IMG/VR virus record: IMGVR_UViG_3300036853_000468
Span: 1 to 57,729 of that record
Length of the DNA: 57,729 nt
Reading direction: 5' to 3' (one strand)
From: a virus
Shown here: positions 49,994-57,729 of the stretch, in pieces
Numbering within the stretch: the first letter of the stretch is position 1
Layout of the letters: each line of letters opens with the position of its first letter
Program-made: the position numbers and the translations under genes
Notes under the pieces: model-generated
Told to the model about the DNA's origin: nothing
What the model saw: only the letters and a program-made list of their open reading frames with translations
The model's database searches: none

Positions 49994-51532
49994 TTATCCT
50001 ACTCTTTCAGGATGCAATTCAGTGAGCTGCGCGATATAATCAGCCTGCTCTCTAATGAATTGCTCTTGCTCAGCAACCTGCTCTTCCAATTCCTTGATCC
50101 TTTTTCGGAGCATCGTTTTGATGTCTAGCTGGACCAACTTGCTTCCATGGGGCCGGATTTGCGCTACCCGTGGCAACTGCTCTGCTGCCATGATGATCGC
50201 ATGCCCGACCTGGAGATCGCTAATCATCCGGTCCACTTCCGTGCCAGGCAACGGAATAAAGCTCTTATAGATGGCCCTATCGACGGGATGTATTACCTTG
50301 TGCAGAAACAGCACATTACATTGTGAGAGTGCATCCTTACTCACTTTTGCACTCCGCTGGCTGACGAGCATAAGTCCCAGGCCGCGTTTACGCCCACGTA
50401 AGGCGATGCGAATAAGTAAGGTTTTGAGTGGCGTTCTGGTACCTTCCGGTACCCATTCATGCGCTTCTTCCAGTACAATTTGGTACGGGCTTTTCCGTTT
50501 GGTGGTCAAGTTCCAGACGCAGGTAAAGTAGTTCAAGAGGATTTCGTGTGCCTCCTGCTCTGTATACTCTGAGAGATCGAGCAACACATTGCTACCCTGC
50601 TCAACGGAGTCTTTTGCCAGCTCCGCTGCCGTTTCAGCAGTAAGCAGGATATCTGCATTGGATCGACCAGCAACAAGCATGGTAAAACGCTCTTTTAAGC
50701 CTCTGTACTCACCTTCGATGTCGACAATGGTTACAGGAGTCTGGTTGGAAAGCAACTCTTCAACCAGGACCAATGCGGTATTCGTTTTCCCTGAGCGTGT
50801 TATACCCAACACCGCAATATTCTTCCCTGCAAGGCTATCAATATCAATGGTAAGTGCTCTTTCAACATCGATATACATATCATCTCCTCTTTGAGGTCTC
50901 GACTCTTGCGATAATAACGTGCCAGGCCCACCTGATAACAAGCTCACCATCCAGAGCCAGTCCATACGACGCGGGTCGATTTCCAACGGATGGGCAAGGA
51001 CAAAATCTCGTATCTGCCCATCGGTAAACAGCCAGTAATCGTTTTTCTCTTTCTCCGTTTCCCGTCGTCTTCCAACAATCCACCCATCTCTAAGCCATCG
51101 TTCAACTTTGTGATGGTCACATCCGAGCGCCAGGCAGAGGCCACGCATCGTATAGCCCTCTGCTGTTTTGTTGACGCCTAACCTCTTTGCCTTGAGTTTG
51201 ACGGCGATCTGTGTTCGTCCGAGCGTCTTGGCTATAGTGGCAATGGAAGCACGTCCCAAATTTGCCTCAAGATATTCTTCTTCTGCCCTGGTCCAGAATG
51301 GCTCTTTTTGGCGAGCCAGACCAAGCTGGCAGCCCCATTTTTTGACGACATACCGTGGGACATGAAGACGAGCTGCCAACTCATCGATGACCGGCTTTGT
51401 GCCATCGTACTTTGCCAGAATTAAGGCCCGTCCTGGCTCATCGAGGAAATACTTTTGTCGGATGCCTCCGGTGTGTGCCCCAACGCGCCTGGCTCCAACC
51501 TGTTCAAGTGGCATAAGGGGTTGAACCATCAT
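49994..51532 (-). CDS. HTH domains fused to a HerA-type ATPase
   Basis: 512 residues. Residues 30-115 hold two HTH units (VIDELAARLHVPRYVVKKWG; SIATIAKTLGRTQIAVKLKA) and 128-180 an excisionase-like winged HTH (LCLALGCDHHKVERWLRDGW). Residues 225-450 are a HerA/DUF87 ATPase: Walker A GITRSGKT (243-250), Walker B IVLEEAHEW (352-360), sensor LMLVSQRSAK. A coiled coil ends the protein (RKRIKELEEQVAEQEQFIRE). HerA-type motors translocate on DNA with partner nucleases. An internal ATG at 50878 (M219) with GAGGAG at 5 nt could give the ATPase alone. Confidence 0.82.
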   Translation of the reverse strand: MMVQPLMPLEQVGARRVGAHTGGIRQKYFLDEPGRALILAKYDGTKPVIDELAARLHVPRYVVKKWGCQLGLARQKEPFWTRAEEEYLEANLGRASIATIAKTLGRTQIAVKLKAKRLGVNKTAEGYTMRGLCLALGCDHHKVERWLRDGWIVGRRRETEKEKNDYWLFTDGQIRDFVLAHPLEIDPRRMDWLWMVSLLSGGPGTLLSQESRPQRGDDMYIDVERALTIDIDSLAGKNIAVLGITRSGKTNTALVLVEELLSNQTPVTIVDIEGEYRGLKERFTMLVAGRSNADILLTAETAAELAKDSVEQGSNVLLDLSEYTEQEAHEILLNYFTCVWNLTTKRKSPYQIVLEEAHEWVPEGTRTPLKTLLIRIALRGRKRGLGLMLVSQRSAKVSKDALSQCNVLFLHKVIHPVDRAIYKSFIPLPGTEVDRMISDLQVGHAIIMAAEQLPRVAQIRPHGSKLVQLDIKTMLRKRIKELEEQVAEQEQFIREQADYIAQLTELHPERVG

Positions 51533-54839: not shown

Positions 54840-55082
54840 TCAGGCCACCTCCACAGAACCAAACAGCTTGTCCAGCGTTTCCCGTTTGATGCGGTAGACG
54901 TGACGCTTGCCACTATGGGGGAGGTAGACCGCTTCCATTGCTCCGCTTTTAATCCAGCGTCTGACTGTTGTATCGTCAACGCGTAAACGCTGTGCGACTT
55001 CATGAACGGTTAAGAGGTCGCTGCCTGCTTCCTGGCGACTTGCTGATCTCCGCTCTTTTGTCGTTCTTTCTGTGATGACCAT
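54840..55082 (-). CDS. xis: Excisionase-like HTH protein
   Basis: 80 residues. DLLTVHEVAQRLRVDDTTVR, RWIKSGAMEAVYLPHSGKRH, VYRIKRETLDKLF is an HTH_17/excisionase domain with recognition helix and wing. Close to the integrase and methyltransferase genes, it would give directionality to excision and may also regulate the operon. The CTCGTGA repeat array at 55294-55403 is the natural candidate for its binding sites. The symbol is by role and not by specific homology. Confidence 0.72.
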   Translation of the reverse strand: MVITERTTKERRSASRQEAGSDLLTVHEVAQRLRVDDTTVRRWIKSGAMEAVYLPHSGKRHVYRIKRETLDKLFGSVEVA

Positions 55083-55293: not shown

Positions 55294-55403
55294 CTCGTGA
55301 ACGCTCGTGATAGCTCGTGATAGTGACTAGATTTTGTCAGCAACTTTGTCAGCTTAGCTCGTGATAGCTCGTGAAAATGGTGCTATCTCGTGAACGCTCG
55401 TGA
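55294..55403. repeat. Phased CTCGTGA repeats upstream of the excisionase operon
   Basis: CTCGTGA begins at 55294, 55304, 55314, then 55358, 55368, then 55387, 55397. Copies within each group are exactly 10 bp apart, one helical turn, which is typical of cooperative binding by an excisionase or regulator. The array lies directly upstream of the operon that encodes the excisionase-like protein and overlaps TTTGTCAGCTTA at 55346-55357. Confidence 0.75.
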
Positions 55404-56244
55404 AAGTGCTCAACTGGCTTCCGAGGCTGGTTTGTGCTTGATTCGCTGGCGACCGGTGAATTATACAAGAATACACAAGTCTTTTTCGCAATCCCTGTAC
55501 TGGCCTGTCTTCGCATGATGCAATAGCGGCGTCTGTCAGCTTATCTGTCAGCTTAGCCTCCGTGACTCAATATTTCCAATGAGCTGCAATCCTATCCACT
55601 CCGTGTAAGCCGGAGGGATCGCATTGGCAATTTCCTCCACTGTTTTCATCCAATCAATACCAAGCGCCTCACGTTGTGCTCGATCCTTTTGCCCAAAACT
55701 CCCTGCAATTGACCAGTACTCGCCATCTCCTGGTATCTTACTGGTTTTTGCTGCACGAAGTACGTGCTTAGGATGGGCAGGTACGATCAGAGGAACATTG
55801 CTCTCAAAGAGCCTATGGCGATAGGTTCTCAATCCGAACATTTCACCACAGAGCATGATCGGACAGTGCATGTGCCGCTTGGCTCCCACTACATTCTCGA
55901 TCACATAGGGCAAGCCCGACGCCTGAAACCGTTTGTATATAACGTCAATGAGCTGCTCGTACTTTTCCGCTGTGCCTGGCCGACACGCAGACATTATAGA
56001 GTAACCCTGACACGGAGGACTGGCCACCACCACATCAAAGCCATCTAGCGGATAGGTCAACGCGTTAGCCTGATGAAATTCAAACGGGTAGTGCGGTTGC
56101 GGCTCGATATCGACACCAACTACCTCAAAGCCTGCACGCGCATAGCCCACCGAGCACCCGCCCGCCTTACAGCAGAGGTCCAGTAAACGAGGTTTTTTAT
56201 GTTCCATCTTCTCTCCTCAGCGGATAGATCGCTTTGTCAGCTTA
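55335..56244. repeat. Dispersed TGTCAGC(TTA) repeats around the methyltransferase gene
   Basis: TGTCAGC occurs at 55335 (then A), and as TGTCAGCTTA at 55348, 55534, 55546 and 56235. Two copies touch the stop of the methyltransferase gene and one follows the stop of the integrase gene, so the methyltransferase gene is flanked by them. Confidence 0.65.
55548..56207 (-). CDS. C5 cytosine-specific DNA methyltransferase
   Basis: 219 residues, compact phage type. Motif I LDLCCKAGGCSVGYARAGF (SAM binding), motif IV SPPCQGYS with catalytic C66, motif VI VIENVVGA (ENV 104-106), motif VIII RTYRHRLFE (R127-R132), and a C-terminal IPPAYTEWIGLQLI for motif X-like. It would methylate cytosine in a short target, probably masking phage DNA from host restriction; the target recognition region is short. 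There is no cognate nuclease in the window. Flanked by TGTCAGCTTA repeats. Confidence 0.88.
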   Translation of the reverse strand: MEHKKPRLLDLCCKAGGCSVGYARAGFEVVGVDIEPQPHYPFEFHQANALTYPLDGFDVVVASPPCQGYSIMSACRPGTAEKYEQLIDVIYKRFQASGLPYVIENVVGAKRHMHCPIMLCGEMFGLRTYRHRLFESNVPLIVPAHPKHVLRAAKTSKIPGDGEYWSIAGSFGQKDRAQREALGIDWMKTVEEIANAIPPAYTEWIGLQLIGNIESRRLS

Positions 56245-57729
56245 CGCAAAAAGCACCTTTCCTAGTTCAGATATCGCCTGCACTTTCCTTTGCGCGATCA
56301 CGTGCAGGTATTTCAATGTTGTCTGAATCGACGTGTGCCCCATCAAGTCCCGTAACTCGACCAGCGTGGCCGAGACGGGATGGGTCAACATTAACGTCGC
56401 GAATGTATGCCGGAGATCGTGGAAACGAATATCTGGCAGACCTGCAAACTTGAGGCACTTCTTGAACATCTCACGAATGCCAGCCGACGTAAAGTAGCCC
56501 GCTGTTTGCCCACAGAAGATAAGATCTTTCTCGTTTACAATCTGCCGCAGCAGGTGATCGGCAAGTTGGTGTGCATGGTGTGCGTGCAGGCAGGCAACCA
56601 TTTCATCGGTGAGCGGTATATCTCTTCGGCTCCTCTTGGTTTTGGGGTCCGTCTCCTCGTAGCCGGTTTTTGGCGTGTAGGACAACGTGCGCCGGACATG
56701 CATGCGCTTCTGCGCGAAATCAATATCCGACCAGTGGAGACACTGAAGTTCCCCCATGCGTGCGCCGGTCGTTAGAGCCAGCATGAGCAAGCACTCATGC
56801 TTGTGGTATTGGTGATGCTCGCGGGTGAAGTATCCCGATCCTTCCCCACAAAACACAAGGTCGTGCTCGTTCACGATTTGCCGCCTCAGGTGGTCAGCCA
56901 GTTGCCACGCGTGGTGCGCACGTAACCGTGTGACCATTTCATCGGTGAGCGGTATATCTCTTCGGCTCTTCTTTAGCTTTGGGGCCGTCTCGACATAGCC
57001 GGTCCTGGCTATGTGGGACAACGTGCGCCGGATATGCATGCGCTTCTGCGCAAAATCAATATCCGACCAGTGGAGCGCCTGAATCTCCAAAGGCTGCATG
57101 CCGGTTGTGACCGTCAGCATGAGCATTAACTCATGCTGGTAACGATTGTCCCTGAGCATGGTGAGCAGCGTCCGAGCCTGCTCAAGATCAAGAAACTGCA
57201 TCTCCTCATCATCAACCCTGGGTAGGGTGATGTTTTGGCAGGGATTTTCTGCTAAGAGCTTATTTTTGACGGCATCATTGAGTGCCGATGCAATGATCTC
57301 GTGATGAAAGTGAATGGTTCCGGGTGCCAACCCTTCCTTTTGCTTTTTCCTGACGTAATCCAGAACGGCTTTTCGCGAGAGTTTCTTCAACTCCCACCCA
57401 CCCAGTTCAGGGATAATATGAACATTCAGACAACTTGACCACGTTCGGTCAGTGCTGGACTTTGCTTCGATTCTTTTCTCTTCCATCCACGCCTCCAGGT
57501 ACTCTCCCACCGTCTGCGAGGTGGGCGTGACACCACGCTCAATCTGCTGCTTTAACGCTTCAAGCTTTGCCAGGGCCTCCTTATATTTGGCCTGTTTTGT
57601 CCCCTTTGTGGAAGATGTTACCGTCTTGCGCCCGCCACCCGGCATCGTAACGGTCCCCTCCCATCGCTCGTGGGCCACACTGTAATATAAGGCTCCCTCC
57701 CCTTGCGGGCGTCTCGTTCCTGTTGTCAT
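56242..57729 (-). CDS. int: Tyrosine integrase with internal catalytic duplication
   Basis: 495 residues, longer than the usual 370-400. Arm-binding N-terminus (GEGALYYSVAHERWEGTVTM), SAM-like core-binding domain (EYLEAWMEEKRIEAKSSTDR), then a catalytic region duplicated: residues 199-309 and 311-421 align with an offset of 112. Copy 2 has the catalytic R324 (TTGARMGEL); copy 1 has Q212 (TTGMQPLEI). The remaining catalytic residues occur once: H437 and R440 (HDLRHTF), H465 (GHTS), Y474 (KYLHV). It integrates the phage genome. The start codon is the last base of the window. Confidence 0.92.
   Translation of the reverse strand: MTTGTRRPQGEGALYYSVAHERWEGTVTMPGGGRKTVTSSTKGTKQAKYKEALAKLEALKQQIERGVTPTSQTVGEYLEAWMEEKRIEAKSSTDRTWSSCLNVHIIPELGGWELKKLSRKAVLDYVRKKQKEGLAPGTIHFHHEIIASALNDAVKNKLLAENPCQNITLPRVDDEEMQFLDLEQARTLLTMLRDNRYQHELMLMLTVTTGMQPLEIQALHWSDIDFAQKRMHIRRTLSHIARTGYVETAPKLKKSRRDIPLTDEMVTRLRAHHAWQLADHLRRQIVNEHDLVFCGEGSGYFTREHHQYHKHECLLMLALTTGARMGELQCLHWSDIDFAQKRMHVRRTLSYTPKTGYEETDPKTKRSRRDIPLTDEMVACLHAHHAHQLADHLLRQIVNEKDLIFCGQTAGYFTSAGIREMFKKCLKFAGLPDIRFHDLRHTFATLMLTHPVSATLVELRDLMGHTSIQTTLKYLHVIAQRKVQAISELGKVLFA
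56464..57135 (-). repeat. Tandem 336-bp duplication in int
   Basis: Copy 1 at 57135-56800 and copy 2 at 56799-56464. Protein identity is high, with blocks such as HWSDIDFAQKRMH, RRTLS and SRRDIPLTDEMV common to both. Blocks of DNA are also nearly identical, e.g. around 56700-56735 and 57035-57070, so the duplication is moderately recent or maintained by conversion. Confidence 0.85.

Follow-up and report, generated by a model that had tools for sequence, protein, structure and literature searches.

Tyrosine recombinases usually have a single catalytic N-half per catalytic domain, an architecture that the Pfam family does not demand and from which the phage integrase described here departs by carrying two units. 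Xer recombinases have H-x8-Y spacing. XerC and XerD share this spacing with our integrase, and the NCBIfam XerC/XerD models match it below cut-off, but these enzymes have no arm-binding domain and a single N-half. The Tn916/Tn1549-type integrases (6emz, 6en2), which match our full model best by structure and rank with the top sequence matches, also have a single catalytic N-half, without an inserted half-domain. Single-block integrases of Ktedonobacteria (e.g. L172, L174, L176 and L200) have the arm-binding domain, the core-binding domain and the catalytic N-half in common with the protein; they differ in having one N-half, a length of about 373-406 aa for most, a TGMRRGE box and H-x9-Y. In the IntCTnDOT subgroup, some members lack the box I Arg at its usual place, and a different site within the single catalytic domain provides it (PMC8138268). 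The solution found here is a different one, the usual Arg being carried by a second whole N-half; a functional domain without box I Arg is not what we found, as unit 2 reads TGARMGE.

We analysed a 57.7-kb window, meaning the whole stretch of DNA under study, which is the virus record of a Ktedonobacteria-type soil phage. By sequence, the domain series of its integrase is arm-binding, core-binding, unit 1, unit 2 and C-half, laid out as follows:

56242..57729, minus strand: integrase (tyrosine recombinase) CDS, 495 aa
57538..57702, minus strand: putative arm-binding-like domain, N-terminal, about residues 10-64, from predicted secondary structure
57265..57510, minus strand: core-binding SAM-like domain, about residues 74-155 (Pfam PF14659/PF22022/PF13102; structure 2kd1)
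56824..57153, minus strand: unit 1, catalytic-domain N-half R193-T302, without Arg I
57085..57105, minus strand: degenerate box I in unit 1, TGMQPLE (Q212 for Arg I, L214 for Gly)
56488..56823, minus strand: unit 2, catalytic-domain N-half R303-T414, with Arg I (R324) and the beta-hairpin Lys (K363)
56749..56769, minus strand: intact box I in unit 2, TGARMGE
56245..56487, minus strand: catalytic-domain C-half, residues 415-495, with H437-x-x-R440, H465 and Y474 (H-x8-Y)

Tandem repeat of the catalytic N-half

A sequence-only reading of this DNA had described a head-to-tail duplication within the integrase, and this duplication is genuine. Self-comparison of the protein gave 96 identical residues at offset 112 and 22-27 at offsets 110, 111, 113 and 114; the half-versus-half alignment scored 403 (shuffled maximum, 55); and in the DNA, 264 nt recur as a direct repeat with 78% identity at a spacing of 336. 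The limits first given for the copies (199-309 and 311-421) proved slightly short, as gapped alignment places unit 1 at R193-T302 and unit 2 at R303-T414, with zero residues between them (T302|R303). The copies share 71% of their amino acids and about 74-78% of their nucleotides. PF00589, which scores the integrase at 135.1 bits (family cut-off, 27.1), matches the ORF twice, with profile positions 2-100 on copy 1 and 19-170 on copy 2.

As had also been proposed, Arg I is confined to copy 2, in continuity with the single HxxR, H and Y motifs. The box I region is TTGMQPLE in unit 1 and TTGARMGE in unit 2, whereas HxxR (437-440), H465 and Y474 are each present once in the integrase. The full R-K-H-R-H/Y set (R324, K363, H437, R440, H465 and Y474) occupies invariant columns, and by sequence the complete catalytic set is made up of unit 2 and the C-half. 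Arg I occurs in 133/133 full-length relatives and the box-I Gly in 94% of relatives; both are gone from unit 1, which keeps its open frame and most other family positions. Of the 18 columns at least 90% conserved in Ktedonobacteria, 13 are matched by unit 1 and 15 by unit 2, which argues that the loss in unit 1, as judged from these residues, is focal (box-I Arg and Gly) rather than general decay, with mild relaxation at most elsewhere. Over all relatives, the corresponding matches at columns at least 60% conserved (n = 23) are 14 and 19. Unit 2 shows two oddities when compared with Ktedonobacteria, A323 and C330.

Divergence and relatives of the two units

The sequence-only reading had considered a recent unequal crossover and suggested a count of synonymous differences between the copies. 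This count does not support a recent event: among 71 degenerate codons that specify the same residue in both copies, 22 differ silently. The units differ at 81/315 nt, which rules out a simple assembly expansion of a single copy, and the NG86 estimates were dS 0.91, dN 0.26 and dN/dS 0.29 (bootstrap 0.14-0.49). Divergence of this extent (71% protein identity, dS ∼0.9) fits neither a recent crossover nor a duplicate made in assembly. It is also patchy, with codons 220-239 and 255-266 being 95-97% DNA-identical and the remainder 63-66%. Gene conversion between the copies may have caused this pattern, with modest support from permutation of the silent identities, in which the longest run gave p = 0.16 and the two longest gave 0.034.

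In the N-half tree, the units are sisters (100/100) nested inside a Ktedonobacteria group (96/80) of single-block integrases. Tip lengths are 0.28 for unit 1 and 0.17 for unit 2, and a long stem (1.0) is common to both, each being the other's closest known relative; they also share derived residues, e.g. V286/V398, where 25/25 relatives have W. The nearest integrases, found in Ktedonobacteria genomes, are 34-38% identical overall and up to 44% per unit, which points to Ktedonobacteria as the probable host class of the phage.

Using an HMM built on the N-half to count units, we obtained two N-half matches in 1/243 integrase ORFs, namely 56242-57729(-). A family in which this insertion is an ordinary feature, which the earlier reading had named as the finding that would speak against it, was found neither in the 243 integrase ORFs nor with a junction-spanning query of phages, plasmids and 400 phylum genomes; the matches examined from the latter (Deinococcus, E. 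faecium, Klebsiella and Mycobacterium phage Luke) were all single-block. Full-protein pattern scans of IMG/VR and GTDB contigs returned zero relatives of the integrase, exact DNA patterns for the two conserved blocks were absent from IMG/VR, and a query of copy 2 plus the C-half recovered relatives at 28-39% identity, none closer. Open-licence papers yielded no description of a tandem N-half in tyrosine recombinases. The two-unit integrase is a singleton, its architecture being absent from every other integrase compared here. Sister phages by terminase (58-68% identical) do not have this integrase; their tyrosine recombinases, where present, are different ones. As a separate observation, two adjacent tyrosine recombinase ORFs from different clades were seen at each of L118, L122, L126, L138, L146, L151, L152, L155 and L156, mostly from Oscillospiraceae, and the viral L030 likewise has paired neighbouring ORFs from two clades.

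The C-half is anomalous in its spacing. Among about 220 sequences, it alone has an HxLRH-to-GH distance of 22, most relatives having 20, and it has H-x8-Y as opposed to H-x9-Y in 35/35 Ktedonobacteria rows. In the C-half tree the integrase falls outside the Ktedonobacteria clade (99/90); constraining it inside was not rejected by the AU test (p-AU 0.28). This odd spacing could mean an impaired or a mosaic enzyme, and a mosaic origin of the gene is possible.

Predicted structure and competing explanations

The full-length model had a mean pLDDT of 81.9 and was uncertain in unit 1 (pLDDT 31-84), where confidence was low since every relative had been aligned with unit 2. Its best PDB match was the Tn1549 integrase 6emz (TMt 0.75), the alignment spanning 421 columns for 316 residues, as though ∼105 residues were skipped. 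AF2 prediction of residues 1-311 with their own alignment gave a mean pLDDT of 89.4, with ∼80-98 in unit 1, and the structure match was again the Tn1549 integrase. The elements of unit 1 follow the order of those in unit 2 (H197-209, H213-217, four strands, H263-283), and, as regards the beta-stranded insertion between catalytic strands 2 and 3 of IntTn916-like arm-binding-domain integrases, the models have four strands in each unit; they also contain an arm-binding domain in which three strands are followed by a helix (E12-17, E22-28, E34-38, H45-64). The predicted fold of unit 1 is that of a complete half-domain, like that of unit 2, in keeping with the earlier suggestion that copy 1 could form an added lobe, although a half-domain predicted from homologues may lack stability alone. 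Lacking the catalytic Arg, the extra copy probably folds but is inactive, an appendage beside one complete active site.

On balance, we consider it probable that the gene arose by a tandem duplication that is not recent and that the enzyme still works. A Ktedonobacterial-type phage tyrosine integrase would have gained, at some time in the past, a tandem copy of ∼110 codons that encode the helices around box I and the beta-sheet bearing the catalytic Lys. A normal, working catalytic domain would form from unit 2 together with the C-half, and unit 1, dead in catalysis, would fold on its own as a half-domain within the linker from the core-binding to the catalytic domain, where it might serve as a spacer or protein-contact surface; the integrase would continue to integrate and excise the phage. 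In favour of this we count the repeat, the motif content, the sister relationship of the copies, dN/dS, the AF2 fold of unit 1 and the 6emz match, as well as the lack of a second recombinase in the record and the excisionase-like HTH protein nearby; against it stand the odd C-half spacing, the singleton status without a close relative and the low pLDDT of unit 1 in the full-length model. Tyrosine recombinases have one strictly ordered active site. A natural protein tolerating an Arg-less extra N-half in the linker would show the stretch limit of the clamp, and it would allow a pseudo-catalytic half to be tested as a regulator of synapsis or direction; as a singleton, the integrase carries limited weight. 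It is quite improbable that the single C-half can pair with either N-half in competition, its docking on unit 1, which has the normal linker but no Arg, giving a DNA-binding but inactive form and its docking on unit 2 the active one. If so, the integrase would hold a built-in decoy serving as an on/off or direction switch.

The two units could also stem from a deletion that fused adjacent paralogous integrase genes, joining the N-terminus and N-half of one to the N-half and C-half of the other; we regard this as possible, although not likely. The copies would then have been diverged already at joining, and in a variant the gene would be a three-part mosaic with its C-half from another recombinase lineage. 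Such a history is consistent with the high and patchy divergence (near-identity in codons 220-239 and 255-266, 63-66% in the rest), with an H-x8-Y C-half outside the Ktedonobacteria clade (99/90) when both N-halves are inside, and with the existence of adjacent integrase gene pairs elsewhere (e.g. L118, L122, L146 and L151). However, the exact abutment T302|R303 is what simple tandem duplication would give, the copies are mutually closest known relatives on a long common stem (1.0), and placement of the C-half with Ktedonobacteria was not rejected (AU test, p = 0.28).

We find it unlikely that the enzyme was inactivated or impaired by the duplication and that copy 1 is drifting junk in an immobile prophage. 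The loss of an invariant catalytic residue from copy 1, its somewhat longer branch (0.28 versus 0.17), its nine departures versus four in copy 2 at columns at least 60% conserved in all relatives, and the odd C-half spacing would all suit decay. On the other hand, the 336 extra nt are still in open frame despite dS ∼0.9, with dN/dS far below 1; outside box I, copy 1 is conserved about as well as copy 2 in the Ktedonobacteria comparison; and every catalytic residue is present once in a record with no other recombinase. We give very little credence to an assembly artefact, although a singleton in a metagenomic virus record invites the thought: expansion of one unit is contradicted by the 81 differences in 315 nt, and a k-mer chimaera of two integrases should join homologous positions, whereas here the end of one unit meets the start of the next.

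Surroundings of the integrase gene

The integrase was the only recombinase found in the record, as PF00589 and PF00239 revealed no second one and PF00239 no serine recombinase. Two further proteins in the record were:

54840-55082, minus strand: excisionase-family HTH protein (TIGR01764), conserved in sister phages
49994-51532, minus strand: protein with weak HerA/terminase-like ATPase matches, far below curated cut-offs

The record ends, 1 and 57729, coincide exactly with the start codons of the outermost ORFs; the record was therefore probably trimmed at gene borders, which places the att sites outside view. Less than 900 bases from the integrase 3' end, TGTCAGCTTA occurs four times on the plus strand (55347, 55534, 55546 and 56235; 0.18 expected), partly arranged as 12-bp tandem pairs, and GCTCGTGA occurs five times at 55303-55403. 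Both repeats are possible arm-type or excisionase sites.
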